The notes below the pieces were generated by a model. It searched no databases. It saw only the letters and a program-made list of their open reading frames with translations, and had not been told where the DNA came from. The position numbers and the translations under genes are program-made. A stretch of 38,174 nucleotides of DNA from Syntrophomonadaceae bacterium (GTDB lineage: Bacteria; Bacillota; Dethiobacteria; DTU022). The DNA lies in the NCBI GenBank assembly GCA_007130825.1, contig SLRT01000094.1, forward strand, positions 1 to 38,174, written 5' to 3'. Numbering within the stretch: the stretch's first letter is position 1; every line of letters starts with the position of its first letter. Shown piece after piece: positions 4,110 to 38,174 of this stretch.

Positions 4110-4134
4110 TCCTTCTTATCATGATAACTTTTTA

Positions 4135-4719
4135 TTAACCTGTAACCTTTCGGCCTTCAGAAAAGGCTTCCTTGTTCAGCTCCACGAATTTCTGCGGAAC
4201 CATTTGCCCGATCACTTCAAGCCATGCTTCTTTATCGCCACCAACTAAGTTGGAAAGAGCGCCGAGCATTACCACGCCAACCATGGCCGGATTGCCCAGT
4301 TCTTTGGCAATGCCCGTACCTTCAACCCAAAACACTTTTTCAGCCCTGCTGAGCAGTAAAGATTCGATATTTTCTTTAGATGGATAACCTGCCTTGCCCA
4401 GATTCACCAGGGGCGGGTTAATGCGGTAGTCGTTAACCAGGGCTGTAGAGCCTTCTTTGAGAAACTGCGGGAAACGGGCCGCTTCAAGCATTTCAAAGCC
4501 AATGATGTAATCAACTTTGTTAACCTCTACCAGGGGTGAGAAAACCTTTTCTCCCCAGCGAACGTGGCTGTCTACCTGGCCGCCCCGCTGAGCCATACCG
4601 TGCACTTCCGCTTTTTTTACATCATAACCAAGCTGCAGCCCTACTTCCGCCAGGATATTACTGGCCAGGATTGTTCCCTGACCGCCGACCCCGGCCATTA
4701 AAAAGTCTAGATTAGTCAT
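4135..4719 (-). CDS. iorB: Indolepyruvate ferredoxin oxidoreductase beta subunit (2-oxoacid oxidoreductase gamma-domain family)
   Basis: 194 aa; LDFLMAGVGGQGTILASNILAEVG, KKAEVHGMAQRGGQVDSHVRWG. Confidence 0.9.
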   Translation of the reverse strand: MTNLDFLMAGVGGQGTILASNILAEVGLQLGYDVKKAEVHGMAQRGGQVDSHVRWGEKVFSPLVEVNKVDYIIGFEMLEAARFPQFLKEGSTALVNDYRINPPLVNLGKAGYPSKENIESLLLSRAEKVFWVEGTGIAKELGNPAMVGVVMLGALSNLVGGDKEAWLEVIGQMVPQKFVELNKEAFSEGRKVTG

Positions 4720-4762
4720 ATCTATGCCTCCCTCGAATATTAGCTAAAAATGTCGCACCGGT

Positions 4763-6511
4763 TCACTGCTCGATAATTGCCTCCTGGGGACAAACCTTGA
4801 CACAAAGGCCGCAACCGTTACATAACAAGGAATCGATGCGTACATGTTCGTCTTCCTGGATCAGTGGAGAACAACCAACATCCAGGCAAATACCGCAGTT
4901 AATACAAAGCTCCGGGTCCACTTCCGGTGGTGTGTGCTTTTCTTTAGCGTGCAGCACGCAGGGATGACGGGAAATAATTACCGACGGCTTGCCGCTCTTG
5001 AGATGGTCCTGCAGTATTTTTTCCATCTGGTCAATCTCGTAAGGGTCGCAGATGTCGACCTTTTCAAAACCGATCCCGCGGACCAGTTTTTCCGGATCCA
5101 CTACCGTGGTTGGTTGACCCTGGACTGTTTTACCGGTTCCCGGGTGCTCCTGGAAGCCGGTCATCGCCGTAGCGCTGTTATCAGATATAATGGTGGTGGT
5201 ATTGCCCTGGTTGTAAAGGACATCGATTAAAGGATGGATCCCGGAGTGCAGGAAAGTAGAGTCTCCCAAAACGGCGACAACATCGTCTTTTACCCCGGCC
5301 TTGTCAATACCATGAGCCACGCCTATACTTGCGCCCATGCAGCCGGTAGTGTGCATGGCGCTCAGCGGGGGTGCAGAACCCAGGGTGTAACAGCCGATAT
5401 CGCCTGTTACCAGGACACCGTTTTCTCTGAGCACGTGAAAAAGGGCACGGTGGCCGCAGCCGGGGCAGAGCATGGGGGGACGAATCGGCCGTTCTAAATC
5501 AACTTTGATTTCTGGTGGAGCTTCAGGGGCTGGAATCAACCCTGCTTTTACAGCACAATCACGCACCAGGGTAGGGCTGAATTCTCCCAGCATGGGAAAG
5601 ATGTCTTTGCCCTTAACCTGGATGCCCATTAACCGCAGTTGTTCTTCCAGGAAAGGATCAAGTTCTTCTACGATTACTACGGTTTTTACCCGGTCGGCAA
5701 ATGCACGGATTAATTTTTCCGGCAGTGGATAAACCATGCCGAGTTTTAAGAATGTGGCATTGGGGAAAACTTCTTTGGCGTAATGGTAGTTTACCCCGGC
5801 GCTGATAATGCCCAGGTTGTCATCTCCCGGTTCGATATAATTTATCGGTATTGTTTCAGCATAGTCAGCCAGTTTTTCCAGCCGCTCTTCGACCAGCGGG
5901 TGGCGGCGCCGGGCATTGGCAGGAACCATGACATACCTCTGTGCATCGCGCTCATAAAATGGCGTCTCTTCCGAAGGAGGGGGCGGGCCTGCATCACTTA
6001 CTTCTACCGGTGTAGAAGAATGAGACAGGCGGGTTACACTGCGGACAAGCACCGGTGTTTCAAATTCTTCGCTCATGTCAAGGGCCATGCCGACAAATTG
6101 TTTTGCTTCTTCACTATCGGAAGGTTCAAGCATGGGGCACTTGGCAAACTTGGCGTAATTGCGATTATCCTGTTCGTTCTGAGAGCTGTGCATTTCAGGG
6201 TCGTCGGCGCAAATAATCACCAGGCCCCCTTTTACTCCGGTATAGACAGCATAAAACAGTGAATCGGATGCTACGTTTAAACCGACATGTTTCATCGAGG
6301 ACATAGCCCTGGTGCCCGCATATGCTGCTCCAATGGCCACGTCCAGGGATACTTTTTCGTTGGGAGACCATTCGGCAAATATGCCCGGGTACCTGGAGAA
6401 GTTATCCAAAATTTCCGAGCTGGGAGTGCCGGGATAGGCTGCTCCGACCTGAACCCCGCCCAGGTAAGCTCCGTAAGCAAATGCCTCATTTCCGGTCATT
6501 AATTTTTTCAA
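4763..6511 (-). CDS. iorA: Indolepyruvate ferredoxin oxidoreductase alpha subunit with C-terminal 2x[4Fe-4S] domain
   Basis: 582 aa; GNEAFAYGAYLGGVQVGAAYPGTPSSEI, MLCPGCGHRALF, TPP motif GDIGCYTLG/VLGDSTFLHSG, CINCGICLDVGCSPLI and CNGCGLCVKVCPQEAI. Confidence 0.93.
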   Translation of the reverse strand: MKKLMTGNEAFAYGAYLGGVQVGAAYPGTPSSEILDNFSRYPGIFAEWSPNEKVSLDVAIGAAYAGTRAMSSMKHVGLNVASDSLFYAVYTGVKGGLVIICADDPEMHSSQNEQDNRNYAKFAKCPMLEPSDSEEAKQFVGMALDMSEEFETPVLVRSVTRLSHSSTPVEVSDAGPPPPSEETPFYERDAQRYVMVPANARRRHPLVEERLEKLADYAETIPINYIEPGDDNLGIISAGVNYHYAKEVFPNATFLKLGMVYPLPEKLIRAFADRVKTVVIVEELDPFLEEQLRLMGIQVKGKDIFPMLGEFSPTLVRDCAVKAGLIPAPEAPPEIKVDLERPIRPPMLCPGCGHRALFHVLRENGVLVTGDIGCYTLGSAPPLSAMHTTGCMGASIGVAHGIDKAGVKDDVVAVLGDSTFLHSGIHPLIDVLYNQGNTTTIISDNSATAMTGFQEHPGTGKTVQGQPTTVVDPEKLVRGIGFEKVDICDPYEIDQMEKILQDHLKSGKPSVIISRHPCVLHAKEKHTPPEVDPELCINCGICLDVGCSPLIQEDEHVRIDSLLCNGCGLCVKVCPQEAIIEQ

Positions 6512-6537
6512 TATTAACCCTCCTTGTTATTACTTTC

Positions 6538-7734
6538 TTAACTCAACTGTTCAAAAAATGGTTCCAGTTCGGCAAGCACCTGAGCTTCGGAAAAGAAACG
6601 CAGGTCCGACATGTCCGCTTCGAATACCGTTCCGGGAAGGCCGGTTCGTTCTCTGATTAGTTTGCTCTTGGCATAAAGTCCGATAGCGTTGGGTTTACAG
6701 CTGCGGTTGGAAAAGAATACAAAGCCGTCAACTCCGTATTTGGTCATAAAATTGATTTTTCGTTGGACCCGGTACTCAAAACAGCGGTTAACAAATTCAT
6801 GGGTGTAGCTTTCAGCCAGGCTTTCCAGTGGACGTTCCAGGTTAAAAGAATATGCCCAGGAATGGGTATACTGTGAAGCTACTACCAGCGCTCCCCGGGA
6901 AGCAAACAGATCGGAAAACCAGCGCAATTTAGGCCAGCAGGGAATGTGGTCAAAATAGATCTTGTAGCGCTCTTCCGGTATGGCTGTTATCCCGTTTTCG
7001 ATCCGTTCATCTATTTCTTCCTTTAAAGCACGGTAATAGTCTACAGCCTCCTGTGTGCCCCTTAAGGTAACAATCGGAGCCATGTGAAAACAGGCGTCAA
7101 AAAAACCAAAGGGGGCCGGTTTTAAGGCGGCGGTATCAAGAATCTCGTTCCAGAGGCGGCAGGCTTCGTTGGAAAGGGCCAGCACTTCTGAGAGCCTTTC
7201 ATAATTAAAAGTGTTTCCGGTAAAATTTTCGATAAAAGCGATCATTTCATGTAACTGTTCGATAAAATAACCCTTGCAAAGCTCGTCTGTTTCAAGGCCC
7301 ACCCGTGGCGAATCAAGCAAAAAATAAGGTGCATTGTAAAAACGGCCAGCTACTTCAAACCATTTTGGCAGGCTTCCGCACTGGGTGTTGCAGCAGAATA
7401 AGAGATCGGGTTCCAATATTTCCCCGATCGGGTGTTCGTCAGCGTAAGCATCACCAATGCCGCAGCGGGCGTAACCGCAGAGATCCCGGGCATAGCCCCT
7501 GGCCTCAGCGGCGGTGGACAGTTTGTCAGCCACTTTCCTGGCGGCGGCTACGGCTCCATAGTTTTCCGGATAGTAGGGGAAAAGCCCGGCTGCATAGATG
7601 ATCTCCACCGGAAAAACGGCAGTAACCCAGGCTACCGGGATACCCTTCTTTTTTGCTTCTTTACCGGCATCATTGTAGCGGGCCATTATTTCTTTCATCA
7701 GCGCGGCAGTTTTAAAGACGTTTTTAGCGGTCAT
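6538..7734 (-). CDS. 2-hydroxyacyl-CoA dehydratase-family (HgdB/FldB/BcrB-like) subunit
   Basis: 398 aa; VAWVTAVFPVEIIYAAGLFPYYPE, LCGYARCGIGDAY, NTQCGSLPKWFE, FFSNRSCKPNAIG. Confidence 0.85.
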   Translation of the reverse strand: MTAKNVFKTAALMKEIMARYNDAGKEAKKKGIPVAWVTAVFPVEIIYAAGLFPYYPENYGAVAAARKVADKLSTAAEARGYARDLCGYARCGIGDAYADEHPIGEILEPDLLFCCNTQCGSLPKWFEVAGRFYNAPYFLLDSPRVGLETDELCKGYFIEQLHEMIAFIENFTGNTFNYERLSEVLALSNEACRLWNEILDTAALKPAPFGFFDACFHMAPIVTLRGTQEAVDYYRALKEEIDERIENGITAIPEERYKIYFDHIPCWPKLRWFSDLFASRGALVVASQYTHSWAYSFNLERPLESLAESYTHEFVNRCFEYRVQRKINFMTKYGVDGFVFFSNRSCKPNAIGLYAKSKLIRERTGLPGTVFEADMSDLRFFSEAQVLAELEPFFEQLS

Positions 7735-8879
7735 ACGTTCTCACCCCCAACCATCTCCATAAAGGCATGGACCCTGGTCCGCAGCTGACCCAGGCCTGAA
7801 CGGCCAAATTGTGTCTCGAGGCGCATAGCTGGAATGCCTGCGTTTTGCATTGCCTGTAAGTTATCATAGGAATCAAAGTTTTCGGGCTCGCAAAATTTAA
7901 GATGAAGGAAAATTGCCCCCTGCACCTTCTTTTCGTTTGCCAGGTTTGCTAGAAAAAATCTCCTTGGGTTATGTGCCGGATCAAATGCAGCAGAAGGAAT
8001 CCGGTTTAGCTGGCGGTCGGCAAGAGCCTCGATAAGACTTCCCCGGGTGGCGACATCGGCCTCGATATAGCGGTAGCCGTTTTGAAAGTCGTCTCCAACT
8101 ACAGCGCCCCCGAATTCCTCAATATAATCAAGAATATCCATCGGTTCCAGCAGTGTTCCCGATAACAATATGCGCACATGTTCTTTATCCACTTCAGTAG
8201 CATTTAAATCATCTTCTAATGTACTCACGATCTTGACCAACAGCTCGTTGACTTTTTCCCGGGGCATAATCATGGCTGCATTAATGATCGTATAGAGTTC
8301 CCGGTTACTGATTAAAACAGGGTTTTGGGCATGCAGGTCAACAAGCCTGCGCATCAGTTTCCGGTTGTGATTATATAGAGTTATGCTGTGTTTTAAATCT
8401 TCCGGTTTAATAGATCGGCCAATGTATTGTTCCAGTCTGTATTTAATTCTCTCCAGCTCGCCGATAATATACTTTCCGACGCTGGGGCGGTCAACCTGCC
8501 TTGGCAGGCGAAAATCTTCCATGTACGCTAAGGGCCGGACATGCTTCCACAGGTCCAACAACATGCGGGTAGTATCACAGGTTTGGGGAACGATCAACCC
8601 GTCTAAAAAGTCAAGATTACCGCCTAAAGCAAGAGCCAGGCTGTTACGAGCGTGAGAGCAGACCCAGGCTTGCAGATGTGTGTCCGCTTTTTCCAGTTCC
8701 GCTTTTCCGTTGATGATTCCATACGGAAATAATCCGGCTGCATGAATCAACTCTTCGGGAACATCGCTCATTAGAAAACCGATGGCCCCGCTATTTTGTT
8801 CTGTTTTCCACTGCCTGACCTGGTCCGCAGGATTTATAAGCGCACTTTCAAAAGTTTCTATTAACTCGGTTCTTTTCAA
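7731..8879 (-). CDS. 2-hydroxyacyl-CoA dehydratase-family (FldC/BcrC-like) second subunit
   Basis: 382 aa; GFLMSDVPEELIHAAGLFPYGI, WVCSHARNSLALALGG, LIVPQTCDTTRML, HLKFCEPENFDSY; 4-nt overlap with the downstream gene. Confidence 0.85.
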   Translation of the reverse strand: MKRTELIETFESALINPADQVRQWKTEQNSGAIGFLMSDVPEELIHAAGLFPYGIINGKAELEKADTHLQAWVCSHARNSLALALGGNLDFLDGLIVPQTCDTTRMLLDLWKHVRPLAYMEDFRLPRQVDRPSVGKYIIGELERIKYRLEQYIGRSIKPEDLKHSITLYNHNRKLMRRLVDLHAQNPVLISNRELYTIINAAMIMPREKVNELLVKIVSTLEDDLNATEVDKEHVRILLSGTLLEPMDILDYIEEFGGAVVGDDFQNGYRYIEADVATRGSLIEALADRQLNRIPSAAFDPAHNPRRFFLANLANEKKVQGAIFLHLKFCEPENFDSYDNLQAMQNAGIPAMRLETQFGRSGLGQLRTRVHAFMEMVGGENV

Positions 8880-8903
8880 ATGTCTGCTCCTTTAAAATTA
8901 AGC

Positions 8904-9929
8904 TTATGTGTTCTTAATCCATTGCGGATTGCCCTCGAAGCCGGGTACCACATTTAATAATGGCTGTCCATTTAAAAAGCGTTCTATATTATCGACAAAG
9001 GCGCCGCCAAATCGGGGGGCGTACTGGTCCGTCCAACTGGAAATATGCGGTGAAATGATGATGTTTTCGCATTCCCAGAGCTCATCTTCCGGAGGAAGGT
9101 AAGAAGGAAGCGGGTCTTTAATCCAATGAGTATCATTGGCCGCCCCGGCGATCCATCCTTCTTTTAAAGCCTTGACTAAATCTTCTTTGACGATTAATGA
9201 GCCGCGGGCGCAATTGATCAGGTATGCTGAATTTTTCATCAGCTTAAACGTTCTTTCGTTCATCATTTCCCGGGTCTGATCGGTTTCCGGGCAGGAAAGC
9301 ACCAGAAAATCGCTTTGGCGGATAACTTCATCTGCCTGGTCACTTAAGAATATTTCGTCTACGTGCGGTATATCCATAATCTGGATATCTGTGCCGATAA
9401 CACGCATGTCGAAAGGTTTGGCCCGCCTGGCAATCTGGCGCCCGATACCACCAAGGCCGATAATCCCAATGGTTTTACCGTACAGTTCTTCTCCGCGGAC
9501 ACGGATAAACTTATTTTCTTTTTGCTGGTCCCACAGTTGATTAAACTTTTTGGCAAGATTGAGCATCAGGCCGATCACAAATTCAGAAATCGGGATACCG
9601 GAACCTCCCGGAAGGTAGGTCAAGGGCACGTGCGCCGGCACTTTGCCCCATTTTTGCCAGTGATCTATCCCGGCGCTGAAAGACATAATCCACTGCAGAT
9701 CCTTCATCTCCGGGACCCTTTCTACAATTACACCGGAACCGACAATATGTGTATCAAGGTATTCATCGGGAATGGATTCAGCTGAGCCCTTCTGGATGAG
9801 CCGAATTCTGATTTCTCCTTTGGCTACTTTTTCAGGGTATCTTTCTTTAATCAACTCCTCGTACTCAACCGGACTGCCCAGCCCGGGCTGTAAAGCGACA
9901 AGTATATTCAGAGGATTAAAACTGGCCAT
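8904..9929 (-). CDS. D-isomer-specific 2-hydroxyacid dehydrogenase
   Basis: 341 aa; GKTIGIIGLGGIGRQIARRAKPFDMRVIGTD, NCARGSLIVKEDLVKAL, SPHISSWT. Confidence 0.9.
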   Translation of the reverse strand: MASFNPLNILVALQPGLGSPVEYEELIKERYPEKVAKGEIRIRLIQKGSAESIPDEYLDTHIVGSGVIVERVPEMKDLQWIMSFSAGIDHWQKWGKVPAHVPLTYLPGGSGIPISEFVIGLMLNLAKKFNQLWDQQKENKFIRVRGEELYGKTIGIIGLGGIGRQIARRAKPFDMRVIGTDIQIMDIPHVDEIFLSDQADEVIRQSDFLVLSCPETDQTREMMNERTFKLMKNSAYLINCARGSLIVKEDLVKALKEGWIAGAANDTHWIKDPLPSYLPPEDELWECENIIISPHISSWTDQYAPRFGGAFVDNIERFLNGQPLLNVVPGFEGNPQWIKNT

Positions 9930-18176: not shown

Positions 18177-18733
18177 TGACTGTCACTCCCTTGTGCTACA
18201 GTTCTTACAGCTTTGATCAGGTCCAGCAGAATTACCATAGCAAACATAATTATGCCGAAAGCAACCAGGTAAATCGATGGAGCAATGGGTACTTCCAGGT
18301 GGCCGGTATAATATCCCGCCATCATTCTGTTGTAGGCGAAAAACAAAATTTCCCGGGCCAGGATGTAGGAAAATATAAGGGCTATGCCAGAGACAACAAG
18401 ATCGATCAATCCCTGCACACGCGGAGAAAACTTGTCCACGAGCAACCCGACCATGATGTGTCCTTTCATTAGTGCAGTATAAGCTACGCCGAGGCCAAGC
18501 AGTACGGCTCCGGACATTTCCACCAGTTCGACGGCACCGCCTATCGGTCTGTATGGAATACGAATAATTACGTTGGTTACTGTAATTGCCATGACAATAA
18601 TCAGGGCCAACTGGGCTACCTGTGCTGTTCGCCAGGTTAAGCCCCGGACTAATCGTTCGAATAAACTTAACAAGTATAACCGCCCCCCTGTTATCGGTAT
18701 ATTCAAAATTTCATTTACTTTAAGGTTTATCAT
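18173..18733 (-). CDS. dctQ: TRAP transporter small permease (DctQ)
   Basis: 186 aa; TM segments, RPIGGAVELVEMSGAVLLGLGVAYTALMKGHIMVGLL. Overlaps dctM by 4 nt. True start may be a downstream TTG after an AGGGGGG RBS. Confidence 0.88.
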   Translation of the reverse strand: MINLKVNEILNIPITGGRLYLLSLFERLVRGLTWRTAQVAQLALIIVMAITVTNVIIRIPYRPIGGAVELVEMSGAVLLGLGVAYTALMKGHIMVGLLVDKFSPRVQGLIDLVVSGIALIFSYILAREILFFAYNRMMAGYYTGHLEVPIAPSIYLVAFGIIMFAMVILLDLIKAVRTVAQGSDSQ

Positions 18734-24269: not shown

Positions 24270-26192
24270 GTGAAACAAATGGATCCGAAAGATCATCAGC
24301 AAAAGAAAATCCAGCTGGCAGTGACCAAAGAAAAATATCCGGAAAAATATGAATCGGAAGATACAATTTTCAGCCATATCCATGCCGGCGACAGGATTTT
24401 TATTGGCACAGCCTGCGGTGAACCGCAATACCTTGTCCAGGCCCTTATTAAATTCGTGGAATCTAACCCGAAAGCTTTTTTCGATGCAGAAGTTTTACAT
24501 GTCTGGACGCTTGGTGTTGCTCCATACATGGATCAAAAATTTAAAAAGAATTTCAGGCACAATTCTTTTTTCATTGCGGAAAACACCAGGGAGGTGGTTA
24601 ACAAGGGCCTTGCCGATTATACACCCGTTTTCGCTTCCGATATCCCCAGTTTGTTCAGACGCAGACTGGTGCCGGTCGATGTCGCCCTGGTCCAGACATC
24701 ACTGCCTGATCGGCATGGACATCTGAGCCTCGGTATAAGCGTTGATATTACCAAGACGGCTGTTGAAAACGCAACGCTGGTTATTGCCCAGGTTAATTCA
24801 GAGATGCCGAGAATCCATGGAGACACTTTCGTCAACATCGAAGACGTAGATTTTATTGTCCCTTATGACGAGCCGTTGTTGGAATATAAAGCCCCCAATC
24901 CTCCAGCCGGCGCTGTGCAGGAAATTGGAAGGTATGCCGCCCGGATCATTGAAAACGGAGATACAATTCAGGTTGGCTATGGAAGCTTGCCCAATGCGAT
25001 TCTGGCTAACCTTGACTCCAAAAAGAACCTTGGCATCCACTCGGAATTACTCAGCGATGGGATAGTGGATCTTATCAAAAAGGGGGTTGTGAATAACTCA
25101 AAAAAAACCATAGATCGTGAAAAAACTGTCGCTTCTTTTTGTATGGGAAGCAGGGCAACCTACGATTATCTTGATGATAACCCGGGCATGGAATTCAGGG
25201 CAATCGATTATACCAACGACCCGATTACGATTGCCATGAATAAAAATATGGTGGCCATAAACACCGCCCTGGAAATTGACCTTACCGGGCAGGCTACGGC
25301 GGAATCGCTGGGACGCTATTTTTTCAGTGGAATCGGCGGGCAGGCTGATTTTATGCGCGGTGCGGTTTTGGCAAAAGGCGGTAAAACCATCCTCGCTCTA
25401 CCTTCAACCAGTGAAAACGATGAGATTTCTAGGATTGTCCCTTTTCTCAACGAAGGTGCCGGTGTTACTCTAACCCGCGGGGACATCCATTATGTGGTCA
25501 CAGAATACGGGATAGCATACCTGCATGGGAAAAATGTGAGGGAGAGAGCGATGGCTTTGATATCTATAGCCCATCCTTCTCATCAGCCGTGGCTGATAGA
25601 AGAAGCAAAAAAATATTCTCTTATATATAAAGACCAGGCCTTTATTCCCGGAGAAAAAGGTAAGTATCCCGCTGAACTTGAGACACGCAGAGCCACAAGT
25701 TCCGGGCTGGAGTTTTTTTTGAGACCGGTCAGGATCAGCGATGAACATTTGCTTAAAGATTTTTTTTACAGCCTTTCAGATGAAACCCGGTATAACCGGT
25801 TTCTTTCCCGGCGGGAAGATATGCCGCGCCAAATGCTGCAGGATCTTTTCCTGGTTATTGATTATACTAAGCAAATGGTGATCCTGGCGACAATTGAGCA
25901 TGAAGGCGCTGAAGTTATTATCGGCGTCGGTCAATATGTTGTTCTTGAAGGGACCCTTACTGCCCAGGTAGCCCTGGTTGTAAGGGATGATTATCACCAT
26001 AAGGGCCTTGGGACCGAATTGCTTTCTTACCTGGCCTACATCGCAAAAAGAGAGGGGTTGACCGGCTTTACAGCCGAAATACTGCCGGAAAACAAACATG
26101 TCTTGCATTTGTTAGAAAAAATTGGCCTTGTAGTGGAAAAGAAATTTTCCGCAGGAGTTTACTTGATAGAAATTGCCTTCCAGGAGAGGTGA
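24270..26192 (+). CDS. Acetyl-CoA hydrolase/CoA-transferase fused to C-terminal GNAT acetyltransferase domain
   Basis: 640 aa; IQVGYGSLPNAILANL, LGIHSELLSDGIVDLIKKG, GIGGQADFMRGA, VTEYGIAYLHGKNVRERA; then LRPVRISDEHLLKDFFYSLSDETRYNRFL ... ALVVRDDYHHKGLGTELLSYLAYIAKREGL. Confidence 0.92.
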   Translation: MKQMDPKDHQQKKIQLAVTKEKYPEKYESEDTIFSHIHAGDRIFIGTACGEPQYLVQALIKFVESNPKAFFDAEVLHVWTLGVAPYMDQKFKKNFRHNSFFIAENTREVVNKGLADYTPVFASDIPSLFRRRLVPVDVALVQTSLPDRHGHLSLGISVDITKTAVENATLVIAQVNSEMPRIHGDTFVNIEDVDFIVPYDEPLLEYKAPNPPAGAVQEIGRYAARIIENGDTIQVGYGSLPNAILANLDSKKNLGIHSELLSDGIVDLIKKGVVNNSKKTIDREKTVASFCMGSRATYDYLDDNPGMEFRAIDYTNDPITIAMNKNMVAINTALEIDLTGQATAESLGRYFFSGIGGQADFMRGAVLAKGGKTILALPSTSENDEISRIVPFLNEGAGVTLTRGDIHYVVTEYGIAYLHGKNVRERAMALISIAHPSHQPWLIEEAKKYSLIYKDQAFIPGEKGKYPAELETRRATSSGLEFFLRPVRISDEHLLKDFFYSLSDETRYNRFLSRREDMPRQMLQDLFLVIDYTKQMVILATIEHEGAEVIIGVGQYVVLEGTLTAQVALVVRDDYHHKGLGTELLSYLAYIAKREGLTGFTAEILPENKHVLHLLEKIGLVVEKKFSAGVYLIEIAFQER

Positions 26193-26270: not shown

Positions 26271-26882
26271 TTAATTTTTCTCAAATTCGAAAGACGGGGT
26301 GGAAGATATCTGAGCTTCTATAAAAACGTAAGCTGCCTGTAATGCCGCTGTAGGACAAAGTGGAAAACATTCCTTGCAGTTCCAGCACTCCTTGACGGCC
26401 AGTTCCGGATTAAAGTTTATCTCTCGTTTCGCTCCCCTGTTTATAAATCCCACCGCGTTCTTTTTCTTTACTTCAGCACAGTATCGCACACATAAGCCAC
26501 AGTGTATACAAAATGAGGCCTCTTTTTCAAAACGATCCTTGTCTGCGCCATATATTTTAGCCAGATCCTGCAGCTGCTTGGAATCAGGAGCGTGTGAAAG
26601 CAATAATTCCAAGATCATCTTACGCACTCTGTTTACCTTTTCCGTTCTGGTTCGCACTACCAGGTTTTGCTCTACCGGGTAAACGCAGGAGACAACGAGT
26701 TTTTTCCGTCCGTTTACTTCTGCTTCTACAGTGCAGATCCGGCAGCCGCCGTAGGGCTCTAATTTTTCGTTGTGGCAAAGGGTCGGGATAGCTATCCCCA
26801 CACTTTGTGCCGCTTCTAAAACGGTCATACCTTCTGCGGCTTCAACTTCTTTGTCATCAATTGTTATAAGGGTCTTGGTCAT
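26271..26882 (-). CDS. bamI-like: NuoG/HoxU-like iron-sulfur subunit (BamI-like)
   Basis: 203 aa; IPTLCHNEKLEPYGGCRICTVEAEV [2Fe-2S] motif, CIHCGLCVRYC, CWNCKECFPLCPTAAL. Confidence 0.82.
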   Translation of the reverse strand: MTKTLITIDDKEVEAAEGMTVLEAAQSVGIAIPTLCHNEKLEPYGGCRICTVEAEVNGRKKLVVSCVYPVEQNLVVRTRTEKVNRVRKMILELLLSHAPDSKQLQDLAKIYGADKDRFEKEASFCIHCGLCVRYCAEVKKKNAVGFINRGAKREINFNPELAVKECWNCKECFPLCPTAALQAAYVFIEAQISSTPSFEFEKN

Positions 26883-28807
26883 TTTTCTTTGCTCCCTTTG
26901 GCTATAATTCTTTCTTCTTCTGGAATAGGAGAAGGCACAGGTTCACCGGAAATCTTTTTCACCGCATTAAAACGGGGAGGGCAAACGTCAAAACAGGTAT
27001 TGCACTTTGTGCACTTATCCTGGTCTATAACATGAATAGTTTTTTTGCCCCCGATAATTGCATCTGAAGGGCACTTCTTAAGACAAGCCATACAGGCCTG
27101 GCACTTCTCCGGATCAATGTAGTAGGCAATCAGTTCCTTGCAGTAAAGGGCCGGGCATTTTTTTCCCTTGATATGTGCCTCATATTCATCTTTAAAATAT
27201 TTTAAGGTGCTAAGAAAAGGATTAGGTGCAGTCTGACCTAATGCACAAAGTGAAATCTCTTTTGCTGTTTCACCCAGTTCTTCTAAAAGCTCGATGTCGC
27301 CATCTTTTCCCTTTCCCTGGGTGATGTTAGTTAAAATTTTAAGCATCTGCCTGACGCCTTCGCGGCAGGGGACGCATTTACCGCAGGATTCATCGGTGAG
27401 GAACTCAAGGAAATACCTGGCCACATCGACCATGCAGGTATCTTCATCCATAACGATCATCCCACCGGAGCCCATCATTGAACCGGCCTGGGTAAGTTCA
27501 TCAAAGCCAACTTGTAAATCCAACAAGTCATCAGGGAGGCACCCGCCTGAGGGTCCACCGGTTTGCACTGCTTTGAACTTCCTGCCTCTATGGATTCCAC
27601 CGCCCACCTTGTAGATAATGTCACGCAGGGTCATACCCATTGGCACTTCCACAAGGCCTGTATTGTTAATTTTCCCGACCAGGGAGAAAATTTTTGTGCC
27701 GTTGCTTGTTTCAGTTCCATATTGGGTAAACCAGTCAGCGCCTTCATTAATAATCAGTGGTATATTGGCCCAGGTTTCAACATTGTTCAAGACAGTAGGT
27801 TTTTCCCAGAGACCCTTGATATTGGAGCGAATATATTTCGGCCTGGGCTCACCGGCTCTTCCTTCCAGCGCTGTCATCAGGGCAGTAGATTCACCGCAAA
27901 CGAAAGCGCCGGCACCCTGGTGAACTATAACCTTGAATTTGAAGTTTGAACCAAGGATATTTTCCCCAAGGAAGCCATATTCTTCAGCCTGCTTGATTGC
28001 AAGCCCCACATTTTCAACTGCCAGGGGGTATTCTTGGCGGACGTAAATATAGCCTTCCCTGGCCCCGATGGTATAGGCTCCGATGGCCAATCCCTCCAGG
28101 ACTGAATGAGGATTACCCTCCAGTAAGCTCCTATCCATGTAAGCGCCGGGATCACCTTCGTCAGCATTGACGATTACATATTTTGTATCATCGGGAGCGT
28201 TGCGGGACCCTTCCCATTTAATTCCGGCAGGGAAACCGCCACCGCCCCGGCCCCGCAGGTTAGCCTTTTTCACTTCCTCCAACACCTGTTCAGGGGTCAT
28301 TTGAAAAAGCACTTTTGCTAATGCACTATATCCGCCAAGAGCCAGATAAGCCTCAATGCTTTTTGGATCAATTTTAATGTTGTTCCCGAAAAGCAAGCGC
28401 TGCTGGTTTTTATAAAAGGGGATTTCAGTTTCATGGATGATCTTTTCTTCGTTGACGGAGTCGACATAAACTAAACGCTCCAGGATCTGATTTTGTTTTA
28501 TCGTCTGAGAGACAATTTCAGGTACGTCTTCGGGCTTTATTTGTAAATAACATATTCCTTCCGGTTGGATAACTATAATCGGGCCTCTTTCACAAAATCC
28601 ATGACAGCCGGTCTTCCTAATGTCCACCTGATCACTTAAACCTTGTTTACTTATCTCTTCTTCAATACTAGAAGCAACTTCTTTACTGCCGGTTGCGTGG
28701 CAGGCAGTCCCGGAGCAGAGGGTAATTGTTCGTTTATTAGGGTCTATTTTTGATAAGATGCTTTCCCTGAGTTTTTCCAGTTCAGCAGATGAATTTATCC
28801 TTGGCAT
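26879..28807 (-). CDS. bamH-like: NuoF-like FMN/NADH-binding subunit with thioredoxin-like N-terminus and 2x[4Fe-4S] C-terminus (BamH-like)
   Basis: 642 aa; LRGRGGGGFPAGIKWE, VNADEGDPGAYMDRSLLEGNPHSVLEG, ESCGKCVPCREG, CQACMACLKKCPSDAI, CTKCNTCFDVCP. Confidence 0.88.
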   Translation of the reverse strand: MPRINSSAELEKLRESILSKIDPNKRTITLCSGTACHATGSKEVASSIEEEISKQGLSDQVDIRKTGCHGFCERGPIIVIQPEGICYLQIKPEDVPEIVSQTIKQNQILERLVYVDSVNEEKIIHETEIPFYKNQQRLLFGNNIKIDPKSIEAYLALGGYSALAKVLFQMTPEQVLEEVKKANLRGRGGGGFPAGIKWEGSRNAPDDTKYVIVNADEGDPGAYMDRSLLEGNPHSVLEGLAIGAYTIGAREGYIYVRQEYPLAVENVGLAIKQAEEYGFLGENILGSNFKFKVIVHQGAGAFVCGESTALMTALEGRAGEPRPKYIRSNIKGLWEKPTVLNNVETWANIPLIINEGADWFTQYGTETSNGTKIFSLVGKINNTGLVEVPMGMTLRDIIYKVGGGIHRGRKFKAVQTGGPSGGCLPDDLLDLQVGFDELTQAGSMMGSGGMIVMDEDTCMVDVARYFLEFLTDESCGKCVPCREGVRQMLKILTNITQGKGKDGDIELLEELGETAKEISLCALGQTAPNPFLSTLKYFKDEYEAHIKGKKCPALYCKELIAYYIDPEKCQACMACLKKCPSDAIIGGKKTIHVIDQDKCTKCNTCFDVCPPRFNAVKKISGEPVPSPIPEEERIIAKGSKEK

Positions 28808-28816
28808 AGTTTTCCC

Positions 28817-29269
28817 TCACTCATATTTTTTTAATGCGCCAGCTGTATCTGCCGGTGATAGCTTGCCGTGAATTTGCCCGTCAATTTCCATTACCGGACC
28901 TAGAGCGCAGCAGCCCAGGCAGTTGACGGTTTCCAGGCTGAATTTCAAATCCAAATCGGTTTCGCCTGGATTAATTCCAGTTAAATTTTTAACTGCGTCG
29001 AGGACATTTTGCGAGCCGCGAACATGGCAGGCGGTTCCCATGCAAATGTGAATTTCATGACGGCCTTTCGGTACCAAACTAAAAGCTTTATAAAAAGTAG
29101 CGATATGCTGGATCCGGGTTAAAGGCACCTGTAATTTTTCGCTGATCCTTTCTAATGCTTGCCTGGGAAGCCAGCGGTTCTCGTTCTGAACCTCCAATAA
29201 CACTTGAATCAGCGAATTAGCTTCACCGTTATGTTTCTCAATTATTTGATCAACTCTTTCGTTATTCAT
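28817..29269 (-). CDS. bamG-like: NuoE-like [2Fe-2S] thioredoxin-fold subunit (BamG-like)
   Basis: 150 aa; IQHIATFYKAFSLVPKGRHEIHICMGTACHVRGSQ, ETVNCLGCCALGPVMEI. Confidence 0.88.
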   Translation of the reverse strand: MNNERVDQIIEKHNGEANSLIQVLLEVQNENRWLPRQALERISEKLQVPLTRIQHIATFYKAFSLVPKGRHEIHICMGTACHVRGSQNVLDAVKNLTGINPGETDLDLKFSLETVNCLGCCALGPVMEIDGQIHGKLSPADTAGALKKYE

Positions 29270-29319: not shown

Positions 29320-30087
29320 TCAGGCGAGGGCAAAGCGCTTCTCGCCTTCTTCGTATTTGACCAGTCCCTGTTTAGAGGAACTATTCAGGTGTTTTGATAT
29401 TTCTGAAGGGCTTAGTCCTAAAATCTCTGACATTTCTCCCGTGGACAGGGGTTTTTCTTTTAGAAGCAGCATAATCTGACTGATCGCCAGTTTATCTGCA
29501 ATTAATACGCTGAACAATTTCTCAAATTCTTCACTGGCGTAGAATTCCTTATAATCCTCCAATGTGGCAAAGTGTCCTCTTAATCTTTCGCTTTCCACCA
29601 ACCTGATGTAAGGGATCAGGTTTAAAATTGCATTAAAGTTTATCTTTAAAGCATTTTTATTTATCCCTTTGCTTGTACCAATGGCTCCTGCATCCCGGAC
29701 CGTCTGAACAAAATCATCAACAACTTCGGCAAAAAGGTTTCCTTCACCGGAAGACATAAATTCGATCCTTAACCTTTCGGGGTTTAGCCCGATATGTTCC
29801 ATTATTTTTTTACTCAGAAAAACCATGTTTAATGCATGGAAATTTCCATGAGTAATATAATTACACTCATTCAAACGGCAGCCGCCAATGAACACCCCAT
29901 CAATTCCGTTTGAGAAAGCCCTGAATACATGGGCCAGATCGATTCTACCGCTGCACATCAAACGAATAAGCCTGATTTCAGTTGTATATTGTAGTCTGGA
30001 AACTCCAGCCAAGTCCGCAGCTCCATATCCTCACCACTGGCATACGAAGCCTATAATCTTAGGTTTAAATGTATGTCCTGTACTCAT
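29320..30087 (-). CDS. bamF-like: Selenocysteine-containing MvhD/FlpD-like hydrogenase delta subunit (BamF-like) with C-terminal winged-helix-like extension
   Basis: Supplied ORF starts at TTG 30012. Same frame extends upstream through TGA (30033..30031) to ATG 30087 preceded by GGGAGGTGGG: MSTGHTFKPKIIGFVCQW-U-GYGAADLAGVSRLQYTTEIRLIRLMCSGRIDLAHVFRAFSNGIDGVFIGGCRLNECNYI. Confidence 0.88.
29996..30008 (-). promoter_or_regulatory. Candidate bacterial SECIS hairpin for the MvhD-like gene
   Basis: CUGGA-GUU-UCCAG, apical loop about 28 nt 3' of the UGA. Confidence 0.55.
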
Positions 30088-30267: not shown

Positions 30268-33200
30268 CTAAACCATAACTTCTTTTATTTCTGTAGTTTC
30301 TTCTTCCTGAACTGCTGCATCAATTTGACTCAAGAGTTCTTTATCGGTGAAATGCTTGAGCTGTATCGCCCCTGTTGGACATACCGCGTTACAGAGACCG
30401 TCTCCTTTGCAGAGGACAGGGTTCACGGCAGCTTTAAAGCCCGCTGTTTCAGTTTCACGAAACTCGATTGCCCCATAAGAACAGGCGGCAATACAAGCCC
30501 CACAGGAAATACACTTATTTTCTTCAACTTCGCAAATAGCGCCGGAAGCGGTGACTATATCGTTTGATAGAAGGGTCAAGACCCGGCCTGCTGCTCCATA
30601 AGCCTGGCTTATTGTTTCTGATAAAAGTTTTGGATAGTGCGCTATTCCACAAAGATAAATTCCTTCTGCCGCAAACTCAACCGGCCTTAATTTTACGTGA
30701 GCTTCTTTGAAAAAGCCATCGGGGCTCAATCCGACCTTGAATAAATTTTCTATTTCCCTGGTTCCTGCAGAAGGAATTACAGCAGCAGCCAAAGCGACTA
30801 TATCGGCATCAATTTCAAGTTTTTTCTCTAAAACATAATCCGGCAGGGTAACCCTTAATACAGGTTTGCCTTCTTCTTCAGCCTGTTCTACATGCGGTTC
30901 TTCTTCCGGATCGTAGCGAATGAATTTAACATCTTTATCTGCCGCTTCACGGTAATAATCCTCGTTATATCCGTATGTCCTCATATCCCGGAAGAGGATG
31001 TAGATATCCATCGCGGGGTTTTTCTCTTTTAGTTTGAGAGCATTTTTTACAGATTCACTGCAGCAGATCCGGCTGCAGTAGTTTCTGTCTTCATTTCTAC
31101 AGCCTACACATTGGATCATGACCAGACTTTCAGCATTGATTACCTTATCTTCTTCTGCAGCAATCTTTTCCTCCAGCTCAAGGTGAGTGAGAACCCGGCT
31201 GTCTTCTCCATAAAGGTACTCGGTGGGAGTATATACTTCAGCGCCGGTGGCGATTACCGTGGCCCCGTGTTTAATTTCAACAGCCCCTCTTTCAGAATCC
31301 ACCCTGGTTATAAAGTTCCCTATATAACCGGCAGCTTCAGTAATGGCTGCATTGGTGTATACATGGATAAGGGGATGTTGATAGATCTTTGCGGTCAGAT
31401 CGCGCAAGTAGGCCTGGACATCCAGCCCCTCCAGGGTTTCATGAACTTTTAGCGCAGTTCCACCAAGTTCAGCCTCCTTTTCCACCAGGTATACATGGTG
31501 CCCCTGCTCGGCGATAGAAAGAGCACAGGTCATGCCCGCTACGCCTCCGCCGACAACCAATGCCTTTTTATTGACCGGCAGATCAATTTCCATTAAAGGT
31601 TCTAAGTGGCGGGCCCTGGCTACTGACATACGGATAATATCTTTCGACTTCTGGGTGGCTGCCTCTTTTTCTTTGGGGTGGACCCAGGAGCAGTGCTCCC
31701 TGATATTGGCCATTTCATAATAGTACTGATTGATTCCCGCCTCCCGGAGAGTGTCCCGGAACAACATTTCCAGGGTCCTTGGGGAGCAGGCGGCCACGAT
31801 TACCCGGTTAAGTCCTTTTTCTTTTATCTTTTCCGTAATTTCTTCGGCGCTGTTGGTTGCGCATGAAAAGAGTTGCTCCTGAGCGTAAACCACGTTGGGT
31901 AAGGTTAAGCAGTAGTCAACGGTTGAAGGAACATCGACAATTCTTCCGATGTTTGCTCCACAGTGACACACAAATACACCTATTCTTGGCTCTTCCAACG
32001 AAACATCTCTTTCCGGCGGGTATACCCTTTCTATGGAAAGATTACCTTTCCTGTAGTTAAGAAGCGCACCACACTGGGAACCGGCCCCGCTGGCGCTCAC
32101 AACTGATTCTGGTATATCCACAGGTCCCTGGAAGGCTCCACTTATAAACAACCCCGGGCGAGTAGTTTCGATTGGATTAACAGGGTTAGTTTTGCAGAAG
32201 CCGTGGTGATTGAGTTCGATACCAAATTTATCAGCCAGGCCTTCAAAGTCAGCAGGAGGGTTAAGCCCGACCGATAATACCACCATCTCGAATTCCTCTT
32301 CCATTACTCCTTCGTCATTGGTGGCGTACCTTATGGTCACATTTTTGGTTTCCGGATCTTCTCTTACGGCCGATGCATAGCTTCTGATAAACTTGACCCC
32401 GGGAAGATTTTCCGCTCTTTGGTAATAGCGTTCGAAGTCTTTCCCATGGGAGCGGATATCATTATGAAATACAGTGCACTCGGTTTCAGCGTCATGTTCT
32501 TTGGTTAGAATAACCTGTTTCTGTGTATAGGTACAGCACACCGCGGAACAATAACTGTTAGCCCCCGGGGGGTTGACCTGCCTGGAACCGACGCACTGGA
32601 TCCAGGCTAATTTACGGGGTTGTTCCAGGTCCGAGGGACGCAAGATCCGGCCTTCGTATGGACCGGTAGAATCTGTCAGTCGTTCATAGTCCATACTGGT
32701 TACAACGTTGTCAAATTTCCCGTAACCAAAGTCTTCTCTCAGTTTGGGGTCAAATTGTTCATAACCCGGAGCCAGGACTACCGCTCCGACATTTATTTCT
32801 GTTTTTTCCTCTTTCTGATTAAAATCTATGGCTTCATTTTGACAGACTGCTTCGCAAATACGGCATTTTTTTTCCTTTAAAAAAAGACAGTTTTCGTCTA
32901 TATAAGTGATCAGCGGAATTGCTTGAGAGTAGTAAATATGAATGGCTTTATTGTTCGATATACTCTGGTTAAATTCATCAGGGTATTGGACCGGGCAGTA
33001 TTCTGTACAGGTAGTACAACCTGTACATTTATCTTCCAAAACATATCTCGGTTTTTTCCTCAGTGTTGCTTTAAAATTTCCTGCAGATCCTTCTATACTG
33101 TCAACTTCAGTATAGGAAAGGACCTCAATATTGTTATGCCGGTCGACCTCGACCAGTTTGGGTGAGAGTATTCACATGGAACAATCATTGGTAGGAAAGG

Positions 33201-33402
33201 TTTTGTCCAGCTGGGCCATATGTCCGCCAATGGCCGGAGCCCTGTCGACAAGGTAAACTTTAAAACCGACAGCGGCCAGATCCAGGGAAGCCTGGATACC
33301 GCTGACCCCTCCGCCAACCACCATAACGTCTCCAAAGTTACTGGCGGTTAGACTTTTAACCAGTTGTTCACTGTATTTTGTCATATCTAAATCTTTCTCC
33401 AC
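30268..33402 (-). CDS. bamE-like: Selenocysteine-containing HdrA-like flavoprotein with two Rossmann/HdrA modules and multiple [4Fe-4S] sites (BamE-like)
   Basis: Supplied ORFs 33172..33402 and 30268..33039 share one frame. [75 protein letters not shown]...[12 protein letters not shown]; second module [23 protein letters not shown]-terminal [16 protein letters not shown] and [16 protein letters not shown]. 1044 aa, Sec at codon 77. Confidence 0.9.
33139..33156 (-). promoter_or_regulatory. Candidate bacterial SECIS hairpin for the HdrA-like gene
   Basis: CUGGUCG-AGGU-CGACCGG: 7-bp stem (one U-G wobble), loop AGGU, starting 15 nt 3' of the UGA at 33174..33172. Confidence 0.8.
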
Positions 33403-34099: not shown

Positions 34100-35251
34100 C
34101 TAAATTACTTCCTGAAGGATCTCCGTGATGTCTTTAACCAGTATAACATCTTCATAATTGAGGCCCGACCTGCTTTCCTCGAGTGCATCAATGCAATAGG
34201 GGCAGGAGGTGCTCAGAACGTCAGCTTCAAGCTCAATAGCTTGCTCTGTCCTCAGGTTGGAGAATCTCTCGTGCATTTTAGTATCGATCCAAATCCTGCC
34301 TCCCCCCATACCGCAGCAGAGGCTGTCTTCCCGCGAATCGGGCATTTCACTTAATTCCAGCCCGGGGATCTTTTTTAAAATTTCCCGCGGTTCTTCGTAT
34401 ATGCCGTTATGCCGGCCCAGGTAACATGGATCATGGTATGTTACTTTCTTCGGAAATTCCTTGTTGATCTGCAGCCTCCCCTCATTAATAAGTTCTAATA
34501 AATACTGGGAGATATGGACTATTTCAAAGTTTGCCTTGAATTCAGGATATTCGTTCTTGAAGGTGTGGTAACAATGAGGTGACGAAACAAGGATTTTTTT
34601 AACTCCGTTTCCGATAAATGTTTTGATATTTTCCCGGGCCAGGTTTTTAAAGACATCCTCATTTCCTGTCTTGCGAATACTTTCTCCACAGCAATTATCC
34701 TGAGTTCCTAGTATTCCGAATTCTACTCCCGCTTTGTTCAGGATATTAACTGTGGCTTGAGCAACTTCTTTTAATCTTTGATCATAGCAAACATAGCAGC
34801 AGGGGAAATACAAAATCTCCATTTCTTCGGCAAATGGCTTAACATCGAGGCCTTCAGCCCAATCTGCCCTCTCGGATCGTTCCTGGACGAAGGGGTTGCC
34901 TTCTGCAGCAAGACTTGCGCTGGCTGAACGGACAGGCTTTAGAAGGGGAGGAGCAACCCCGTATTCAGTGGCAATCCTGCGCATAGCTACCACGTCATCT
35001 ACCTGTTTTACGTCCCTGGGACATTCCTGGGGGCACTTCCCACAGGTAGTGCAACGCCAGACTTCCTCCAACTCTATTTCCGGTAGACCGAATGTTGCCT
35101 CCCGGATCAACTTGCGTATACTAAAGTTTATAACTCTGTTCCAGGGACATACAGTATCGCATTTTCCACATTGATAGCATAACTTGACGGCATCTCCGCC
35201 AAATTCTTTTAATTCCTCAACAACTTCCTTAATCGGGGTTTCAGTGTCCAC
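34100..35251 (-). CDS. bamD-like: HdrD-like (Fe-S binding plus CCG-domain) heterodisulfide reductase-type subunit (BamD-like)
   Basis: 383 aa; CYQCGKCDTVCPWN, CTTCGKCPQECPRDV, two CCG motifs NCCGESIRKTG and SLCCGMGGGRIW. Confidence 0.88.
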   Translation of the reverse strand: MDTETPIKEVVEELKEFGGDAVKLCYQCGKCDTVCPWNRVINFSIRKLIREATFGLPEIELEEVWRCTTCGKCPQECPRDVKQVDDVVAMRRIATEYGVAPPLLKPVRSASASLAAEGNPFVQERSERADWAEGLDVKPFAEEMEILYFPCCYVCYDQRLKEVAQATVNILNKAGVEFGILGTQDNCCGESIRKTGNEDVFKNLARENIKTFIGNGVKKILVSSPHCYHTFKNEYPEFKANFEIVHISQYLLELINEGRLQINKEFPKKVTYHDPCYLGRHNGIYEEPREILKKIPGLELSEMPDSREDSLCCGMGGGRIWIDTKMHERFSNLRTEQAIELEADVLSTSCPYCIDALEESRSGLNYEDVILVKDITEILQEVI

Positions 35252-35281: not shown

Positions 35282-35830
35282 TTATTCTTTTTTTGACATT
35301 CGGGCAATAGTATCCATCAGGTTATCCAGACCATAAGTGTCTGCCAGTGACTTTAACCCTCTTTCCATCTCTTTCGGCACGGTTTCTTCTTCCTCTTCGT
35401 CCACTTCCTCTTCTCTTTCCTCGTAAGTCAGGGCATCGGATAAGCACCACTTCACACACAAGGGTTCTTCTTGCGGCGGATCATCTTCACACATGTCGCA
35501 TTTGAGAGGAAGGCCGGAGTCCGGTTCTTTGAAAGCGTCCCTTGAGGGGCAGGAAGCCCTGCAAAAGTCACATTCGTCGTATTCTTTCCCGTCAATCACA
35601 TACTTGTCCCTGCCCATACACTCAGCTGCGGTATACTCTCCCGCATATACAGGAAGGTATATGTCTTCCAGTGGTCTGCGAATCATCCTAATCCGGGACC
35701 TGGCCGGATTATTACTGCTATATCGTTCCTGAGCGTGAAATGCGGAGCAGATCATTTCACATGACCGGCATCCGTTGCACTGTTCAAGGTCGATCTTGAT
35801 TACCTTAACTGTTTTTTTCGCTTTGCTCAT
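35282..35830 (-). CDS. bamC-like: 4Fe-4S ferredoxin-type electron transfer subunit (BamC-like)
   Basis: MSKAKKTVKVIKIDLEQCNGCRSCEMICSAFHAQ ... ECDFCRASCPSRDAF ... KCDMCEDDPPQEEPLCVKWC. Likely ATG at 35830 rather than the ORF-track start; overlaps the AOR stop. Confidence 0.85.
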   Translation of the reverse strand: MSKAKKTVKVIKIDLEQCNGCRSCEMICSAFHAQERYSSNNPARSRIRMIRRPLEDIYLPVYAGEYTAAECMGRDKYVIDGKEYDECDFCRASCPSRDAFKEPDSGLPLKCDMCEDDPPQEEPLCVKWCLSDALTYEEREEEVDEEEEETVPKEMERGLKSLADTYGLDNLMDTIARMSKKE

Positions 35831-37784
35831 GGTTATAGATTCCTCTCTTTTCCAAGTCTTCACCAACGTAATCCATAGCCAGTTCATGTAGAGACTCTTT
35901 GGTAGGAACACCGTTTTCATTGAATCCTTTAAGCCTGTAATACTCATCTAAGAGCTGAGTTTCAAGCTCGGGAAATCTTTTCTTCCAATGGTTTTCCGGT
36001 GGCTGATCATCATTTCTCCTCAGACCCCTTCTGACATTTATGGCTCTGACTAATGTTCTGTTCCGCTTGGCTATTTTCCATAATTCATCCTTATCAAATT
36101 CAATTCCGGTCGCCGCAGAGATTAAGGTGGGGAAGTTATGTATATGGTAGGGGGGTTTGAGGGGAAATGATGACAACCCGGCACACATTCCAAGGGCATC
36201 ATCAATGTAGTGCATTGTTTCCTGCCAGTCAACAATTTCGCAAACTGCGTCAACGGGTGGATAATATGGAAATGAATTTTCTCCGCGCAGTTCCCAGTTC
36301 AAAAAGATTTCTTTAAGCCTTTCACTGGGTACTTGAACCCAGTCCTTGACGAATTCTTCTCTTTCCTCGCGCGTTGGAAAAGGCGCCTGCGGGAAATTGC
36401 CTTCAATCTGGGTAATGTTTACCTTTTCGCCGGTGGCCCACATGAGGAAATAAATTGGGTTAAGCATTGACAGCTTGATTGGTAGCTGCTCATGTTTTTT
36501 GATGGTGTTATGGTCATATTCTTCCGCCCCCTTGCCAATTTGACGGGCCGCCCAATAGACGCCATCGGCCAAAACATCGCCAATTCCTTCCCGCCGAACA
36601 ATCCTGTCAAGCAACCAGTAAAATTTTCCCTCATTATCGGACGGGATTCCTTCCAAGTCTTTATCAGTGAGGATACCCGCTTCATGAAGCTCGATCGCGA
36701 AGGCCATAACCTGCGGGGTTGAGAATCCGTCCACGCCATATTCGGTTGCCCGTTGGGCGATTTTAAAACCAAAATCCAGGTCTGAATAGGCCGCCATCGT
36801 ATAGGTAAGCTTGGAAAAGCATTTCATCATGTATGTTGAAAGACCGGGGACTGAAATAATCGCACCGCATTTCATCGGGCAGTTATAGCAGCTGATTAAC
36901 CGTTTGCGCACACTTTCTTGCGTCTCTTTCCATTTTTCTTCGACTTCCTTGTTCCAGTAATCTTTTATCCTGGTGCGGGCATTTCCCCAGAGGAAATTTT
37001 CGGTATGCCATTTCTCATCATGGATCAACATTTCTTTCGGTGATCCCAGTCCGGCTAAAATAGGCATAACCCCCGGGACTGGATTACTGTCACGCTCCGG
37101 TATGTATTCAAGAATATCATGGCAAAACTCGATTAATTCAGCTGGCCGGGCAATGTTGACATCTTTGGTTCCACGTACAGCGATCGCTTTTAAACCTTTG
37201 TCTCCCATAACTGCGCCAATTCCGAGCCGGCTGGCACTGGACCTGCTATGCTCGATGGAAGCCATATAGACCCTGTTTTCACCGGCCAGGCCGATAGAAG
37301 CGACCTGTACATCCTCGTCATGCAACTCTTCGCGAATGAGCTTTTCAGTTTCAACAGCCCCTTTACCCTGTAAATGAGAAGCATCACGGATTTCTACCTG
37401 GTCGTTGTTTATCCACAGGTAAACCAGCTTAGGCGATTTGCCACGAAAAATTACTTTGTCATAACCGGCATATTTCAATTCAGGCGCTAAAAAGCCTCCC
37501 ATCATGGAAAATGCCATAAACAAAGTCTGTGGAGAATAGGTAGAAACAATAGTCCGGTTTGCACCAACAGCCGGTGTGCCACATAACAGCCCGGTGCTAA
37601 ATATTAGCAGGTTATCAGGAGAAAAAGGTTCAACATCAGGAGGAACCCGATCCCATAATATTTTGGCGTTGGTACCAAGACCTCCCAGATAGAGTCTGGT
37701 TAATTCCGGATCAGTTTCTACTTTTTCAATGTTTCCGCTTGACAAATCAATTTCTAAATTGTAGCCTGCCTCTGCGTACCTCAT
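35805..37784 (-). CDS. bamB-like: Aldehyde:ferredoxin oxidoreductase-family tungsten/molybdopterin enzyme (BamB-like)
   Basis: YLGGLGTNAKILWDRVPPDVEPFSPDNLLIFSTGLLCGTPAVGANRTIVSTYSPQT, SCYNCPMKCGAIISVPG. Likely ATG at 37784 behind AAGAGG; ORF-track start at 37793 is GTG. Confidence 0.88.
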   Translation of the reverse strand: MRYAEAGYNLEIDLSSGNIEKVETDPELTRLYLGGLGTNAKILWDRVPPDVEPFSPDNLLIFSTGLLCGTPAVGANRTIVSTYSPQTLFMAFSMMGGFLAPELKYAGYDKVIFRGKSPKLVYLWINNDQVEIRDASHLQGKGAVETEKLIREELHDEDVQVASIGLAGENRVYMASIEHSRSSASRLGIGAVMGDKGLKAIAVRGTKDVNIARPAELIEFCHDILEYIPERDSNPVPGVMPILAGLGSPKEMLIHDEKWHTENFLWGNARTRIKDYWNKEVEEKWKETQESVRKRLISCYNCPMKCGAIISVPGLSTYMMKCFSKLTYTMAAYSDLDFGFKIAQRATEYGVDGFSTPQVMAFAIELHEAGILTDKDLEGIPSDNEGKFYWLLDRIVRREGIGDVLADGVYWAARQIGKGAEEYDHNTIKKHEQLPIKLSMLNPIYFLMWATGEKVNITQIEGNFPQAPFPTREEREEFVKDWVQVPSERLKEIFLNWELRGENSFPYYPPVDAVCEIVDWQETMHYIDDALGMCAGLSSFPLKPPYHIHNFPTLISAATGIEFDKDELWKIAKRNRTLVRAINVRRGLRRNDDQPPENHWKKRFPELETQLLDEYYRLKGFNENGVPTKESLHELAMDYVGEDLEKRGIYNHEQSEKNS

Positions 37785-38174
37785 TTTTAACACCTCTTAG
37801 GTATGTTTTTCCTTAAATAATCCAATAATCATTTTGAATCAAGCTTTTAAACCGGAGCACCGCTTATTGAGCACAAGTTACAGTCCTGATTATATGCTAA
37901 AGAAGACTATACCGGGCCTGATCCAAAAAGCTTGTTTAAGTTTGCCCTAAATTCTGCCTGGAACACCCCAAATGAAACTGCTTAATGTGGCCTTGTCGGA
38001 AAAGAATGTAGGTTTAAGCTATATATAGTAATTGTTATGTTAAATAAGGGCCTGCAGTGAGCATGATAGCGATTTTTAAACCAGTGAACTGTGTTTTAAA
38101 CGGCACAGTAACACCGGCAAATTTATATATTTTTATTGCTTATAAAACTTTTCTATCAGCAGCTATTTCATGGT

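Follow-up and report, generated by a model that had tools for sequence, protein, structure and literature searches.

Selenocysteine very probably encoded by an in-frame UGA in bamE, with a predicted second in bamF, in a class II benzoyl-CoA reductase cluster of an uncultured Bacillota bacterium

Selenocysteine is well established in HdrA and in MvhD/FrhD proteins (PMC1794560, PMC9312934), and bacterial HdrA and FrhD genes that encode it are on record from Syntrophobacter, Syntrophus and Moorella, with hdrA and mvhD/frhD clustered in Syntrophobacter (PMC1794560). There the selenocysteine hdrA-frhD pair is coupled to hydrogenase genes and GlpC, whereas the pair described here is coupled to an AOR-type reductase. 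BamE of Desulfococcus multivorans (dmul_C24500/10) was reported in 2016 as a selenocysteine protein with an in-frame UGA and a SECIS element (PMC5109826). Since selenocysteine in HdrA, in MvhD and in BamE has already been published, the bamE gene analysed here is not a novel class of finding; it is a well-supported further example, from a different phylum (Bacillota). The five selenocysteine genes listed for D. multivorans include an mvhD, and BamF is not named among them (PMC5109826), whereas in our locus bamE and bamF both contain an in-frame TGA.

The BamBCDEFGHI complex of Geobacter metallireducens has the same set of subunits as the one encoded here, and its BamF has also been described with a helix-turn-helix (HTH) domain, like ours. 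The complex purified from Geobacter reportedly contains two selenocysteines per dimer, that is, one per half. For G. metallireducens a 2006 survey of selenocysteine genes lists FrhD (of the MvhD/BamF type) and not HdrA (PMC1794560), and because HdrA is missing from that list its BamE is apparently of the cysteine type, in contrast to our locus, where both bamE and bamF carry the predicted selenocysteine codon. The selenocysteine HdrA of methanogens such as Methanocaldococcus jannaschii resembles BamE in bearing the residue in an HdrA subunit, and a solved HdrA chain, 9SFI, has a non-standard residue at the CxxU position that matches residue 77 of BamE; however, the methanogen protein is a single unit of heterodisulfide reductase encoded by an archaeal gene, whereas BamE is a fused double unit. 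The archaeal SECIS element lies outside the coding region.

The window, by which we mean the whole 38,174-nucleotide stretch of DNA that was analysed, comes from an uncultured Bacillota bacterium that has metagenome-assembled genomes of Syntrophomonadaceae as its closest named kin. It holds a complete bamBCDEFGHI cluster in the gene order bamB, bamC, bamD, bamE, bamF, bamG, bamH, bamI. Its features are as follows.

35805..37793, minus strand: bamB, tungsten aldehyde oxidoreductase-type catalytic subunit (1121.9 bits, full length, against 4Z3W, a putative benzoyl-CoA reductase)
35282..35947, minus strand: bamC, multi-[4Fe-4S] ferredoxin subunit (domain matches; homolog at the equivalent place in related loci)
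34100..35251, minus strand: bamD, HdrBC/HdrD-like subunit with two CCG domains
30268..33402, minus strand: bamE, fused double-HdrA selenoprotein of 1044 aa, as predicted from its open frame, HdrA family matches and homologs
33172..33174, minus strand: in-frame TGA of bamE, predicted Sec77, motif CxxU (NDCSMU)
33139..33156, minus strand: predicted bacterial SECIS hairpin of bamE, CUGGUCG-AGGU-CGACCGG
29320..30087, minus strand: bamF, MvhD-like subunit with a C-terminal ArsR-type HTH, predicted second selenoprotein (FlpD/MvhD and HTH_5 matches, read-through from ATG 30087)
30031..30033, minus strand: in-frame TGA of bamF, predicted Sec19, motif VCQW-U-GYGAADLAG
29996..30008, minus strand: putative SECIS hairpin of bamF, CUGGA-GUU-UCCAG
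28817..29269, minus strand: bamG, NuoE-like subunit
26879..28807, minus strand: bamH, NuoF-like NAD(P)H/FMN subunit
26271..26882, minus strand: bamI, N-terminal NuoG/HoxU-like Fe-S subunit

The listed bamC frame overlaps the end of bamB, so that its true start probably lies further downstream. In related loci with sufficient flanking sequence, bamB, bamC and bamD are mostly kept upstream of bamE. The ring-cleavage hydrolase BamA/Oah is encoded elsewhere in the genome (TIGR03200, 579.9 bits, contig C58). From the ordered bam neighbours and the presence of BamA we conclude, on sequence grounds, that the cluster encodes a class II (tungsten, ATP-independent) benzoyl-CoA reductase and that the gene is its bamE. 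The preliminary description had called its product HdrA-like; the kinship holds, and the identity is refined from a generic HdrA to the BamE subunit of this complex. BamE contains the FAD/thioredoxin-reductase, inserted ferredoxin, N-terminal and C-terminal domains of the HdrA family, spread over two fused units. Its scores lie below the NCBIfam curated cut-offs for HdrA2 (960 bits versus 1100) and HdrA (740 versus 1400), and for this reason we classify it by sequence as an HdrA-like, non-canonical heterodisulfide reductase subunit.

Adjoining the bam cluster, positions 24270-26192 of the plus strand encode a protein that joins a CoA-transferase (nearest to the butyryl-CoA:acetate type) to a GNAT acetyltransferase domain. 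A further cluster at 2535-9929 on the minus strand encodes an acyl-CoA ligase, an indolepyruvate:ferredoxin oxidoreductase, two 2-hydroxyacyl-CoA dehydratase-like subunits and a D-2-hydroxyacid dehydrogenase, and has the appearance of a branch for fermenting aromatic amino acids. In-frame TGA candidates elsewhere in the window (for example at 18185, 28819 and 7743) look like ordinary stop-and-next-start junctions between genes or non-coding frames, and were rejected as selenocysteine codons.

The bamE frame starts with GTG at 33402 and contains one internal TGA before its terminal stop. The mechanical open reading frames 33172-33402 (76 aa) and 30268-33039 (923 aa) were both found again, and translation confirmed the earlier observation that they share a frame with no other stop between them. 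The 44 open codons that link them are by themselves weak evidence, with a probability of about 12% by chance on our own estimate. Homology settles the question of one continuous frame: the joined 1044-aa protein aligns end to end with homologs of 68-84% identity that carry the identical in-frame TGA, and its alignment to solved HdrA chains is unbroken across the TGA.

A scan of bacterial and archaeal genomes gave 73 loci, with 59 close homologs covering position 77; these homologs are drawn from Bacillota, Thermodesulfobacteriota, Chloroflexota and others. Codon 77 is TGA in 50 of the close homologs and TGC or TGT in the other nine, with no other codon observed. A separate search of relatives found one TGA in the bamE of every same-genus or same-family match that covers the site (79-84% identity). 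The alignment that the preliminary description had proposed places residue 77 on a conserved Cys/Sec position of HdrA: the equivalent residue is cysteine in distant HdrA proteins, Cys 197 in 5ODC, and an X, denoting a non-standard residue that we infer to be selenocysteine, in 9SFI.

Within the coding sequence, a hairpin of 7 base pairs with an AGGU loop begins 15 nt past the UGA, its loop lying 22 nt past it. Zhang and Gladyshev are said to have placed the apical loop of bacterial SECIS elements, in 2005, within 16-37 nt, a range that includes the bamE loop. Over codons +6 to +11 the same-codon fraction is 0.92-1.00 in 50 TGA versions of the gene, most flanking codons having values of 0.3-0.7; the Cys versions show no such freeze (0.25-0.78 over the same codons). 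The stem is 99.2% paired across 51 sequences, with double changes in two pairs (CG to AU and GC to CG); shuffled versions all fell short of it in pairing, in double-change counts and in covariation score, and versions slid along the sequence fail. The same columns in the Cys versions are 76% paired, which does not exceed the shuffled level. The hairpin is also the minimum free energy (MFE) fold of the short segment around it, with a z score of -1.8 that is modest for a piece of this length. None of the curated Rfam models matched anything in the window, and they do not detect this element. Taken together, the sequence comparisons support the view that the hairpin behaves as expected of a bacterial SECIS element.

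The genome carries the genes with which such a codon could be read. Those for SelA, SelB and SelD are mutually adjacent (contig C135), selD has its own in-frame TGA at the expected place in the active-site motif SAG-U-AAK, and a tRNA-Sec gene is present (74 bits, anticodon TCA, i.e. UCA), so that a search suggested in the preliminary description has recovered selA, selB, selD and a selC-type tRNA-Sec. On contig C76 a gene of the fdhA type also has an in-frame TGA. A SelA match was absent in 2 of the 23 sampled genomes that have such loci; both are metagenome-assembled genomes (1.0 and 1.9 Mb), and incompleteness is possibly the cause. SelB and tRNA-Sec, steered by the SECIS hairpin, would insert selenocysteine at UGA77. 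With the homolog codons, the SECIS element and the machinery all in its support, the earlier proposal that the in-frame UGA specifies Sec77 of a 1044-aa protein is almost certainly correct.

Selenocysteine is not strictly required in BamE, given that nine homologs use cysteine. These nine form one group nested among the selenocysteine versions (SH-aLRT 99; quick tree, midpoint root), a placement that fits a single Sec-to-Cys change. SelA is retained in 9/9 genomes with a Cys-type BamE, and the change is therefore not due to loss of the machinery. Most loci of the group lack a close bamB and bamC, and are therefore possibly paralogs that work with a different partner. Loci L034, L040, L047, L058, L065, L069 and L071 are Cys-type paralogs of this kind, with a CIESPKFVEC motif and mostly without bamB/C neighbours. 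UBA7919 and UBA7527 have both a Cys-type and a Sec-type BamE.

The preliminary description was right about the selenocysteine codon of bamE and missed the one in the adjacent bamF. The bamF codon is TGA in most loci and otherwise TGC or TGT among close homologs. Its putative SECIS hairpin is almost invariant and 98.8% paired over 49 distinct sequences; covariation is absent and the single-sequence MFE prediction prefers a different fold, so that conservation is the sole support for this element. Among 54 loci with adjacent bamE and bamF, TGA is found in both genes in 45, cysteine in both in 8, and a mixed state in 1 (Fisher p ~9e-9, uncorrected for shared ancestry). In the sole mixed locus (L050:6001-9923), where the bam cluster is complete in other respects, a Cys-type BamE stands beside a Sec-type BamF. 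A standard gene call for bamF would begin past the TGA (29320-30012). At its C-terminus (29320-29500, minus strand) BamF joins the MvhD domain to a DNA-binding domain of the ArsR/HTH_5 type, which hints at a regulatory role.

In methanogen HdrA, each copy is reported to supply its Cys 197 as a ligand to the N-terminal Fe-S cluster of its partner, and in fused HdrA proteins the Cys 197 feature and the N-terminal cluster are divided between the halves (PMC9012536). BamE unit 1 (residues ~1-460) combines an FAD domain, in which Sec77 lies, with the inserted ferredoxin domain and is without the N-terminal domain; unit 2 (~464-1044) has the N-terminal domain and is without the stretch bearing Cys74/Sec77, the Cys 197 equivalent. 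Cys479, Cys481, Cys514, Cys539 and residue 77 are invariant in 25 homologs, counting selenocysteine as cysteine, and Cys74 is likewise invariant in them. From the Cys 197 homology and the complementary domain loss between the units we tentatively propose, giving the idea a little under an even chance, that Sec77 of unit 1 lends a selenolate ligand to an Fe-S cluster held by Cys479, Cys481, Cys514 and Cys539 of unit 2. An AlphaFold prediction of BamE made with 25 homologs (mean pLDDT 64, residues 59-82 below 50) was too poor for cluster geometry. Ligation by Sec77 would tune a redox step in the probably bifurcating electron path behind benzoyl-CoA reduction, and the BamF selenocysteine (CQWU) would sit in an MvhD-like partner, for which homology predicts electron exchange with the HdrA-like subunit. 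The combined proposal, that in class II benzoyl-CoA reductases with both selenocysteines Sec77 ligates the [4Fe-4S] cluster of unit 2 in the same chain and that the BamE and BamF selenocysteines were co-selected for the very low potential of ring reduction, falls similarly somewhat short of an even chance in our judgement.

Sec77 might instead be a redox-active selenol and not an Fe-S ligand, forming a CxxU selenenylsulfide pair with Cys74 in the manner of thioredoxin reductase. The motif is indeed CxxU, HdrA is listed as CxxU (PMC9312934) and the partner Cys74 is as invariant as residue 77; however, the equivalent Cys 197 of methanogen HdrA is described as a cluster ligand supplied by the partner copy (PMC9012536) and the complementary domain sits in unit 2 of BamE itself, and we regard this role as unlikely and cluster ligation by Sec77 as the better account.

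Readings in which the codon is not selenocysteine fare far worse. The source genome is in 177 contigs and a change from TGC to TGA needs one base only, but that the TGA is an assembly or sequencing error, or marks a broken gene, is refuted by its independent recurrence across assemblies, in 50/59 close homologs from several phyla and in the same-genus and same-family genomes, with both the protein and the hairpin past it conserved; we give this reading next to no weight. UGA can of course terminate, and selenocysteine sites commonly yield some truncated product, yet there is hardly any chance that the locus makes two polypeptides as split genes do, a 76-aa BamE-N ending at the UGA and a BamE-C starting from an internal TTG: the break would disrupt an invariant Cys motif within the FAD-binding domain, the stretch from the TGA to the next start encodes conserved protein, and the homologs that encode cysteine run uninterrupted. 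Insertion of another amino acid, Trp or Gly for instance, through a reassigned code or a suppressor would explain the open frame, which is open whatever TGA means, and is nevertheless extremely improbable, as TGA terminates 9/29 genes of the window, and so has not been reassigned genome-wide, is internal to bamE and bamF only, aligns in relatives with Cys or a non-standard residue and never with Trp or Gly, and occurs in a genome with the full selenocysteine machinery.

We thus retain selenocysteine as the meaning of UGA77. As the preliminary description had anticipated, standard annotation would split bamE in this genome, and it would truncate bamF as well. What the present analysis adds is that the two-selenocysteine state, in BamE and in BamF, is the usual one in the sampled loci of class II benzoyl-CoA reductases. 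If this is true, the reduction of aromatic rings in many anaerobes would depend on selenium, and a natural selenolate-ligated Fe-S cluster becomes a testable possibility.
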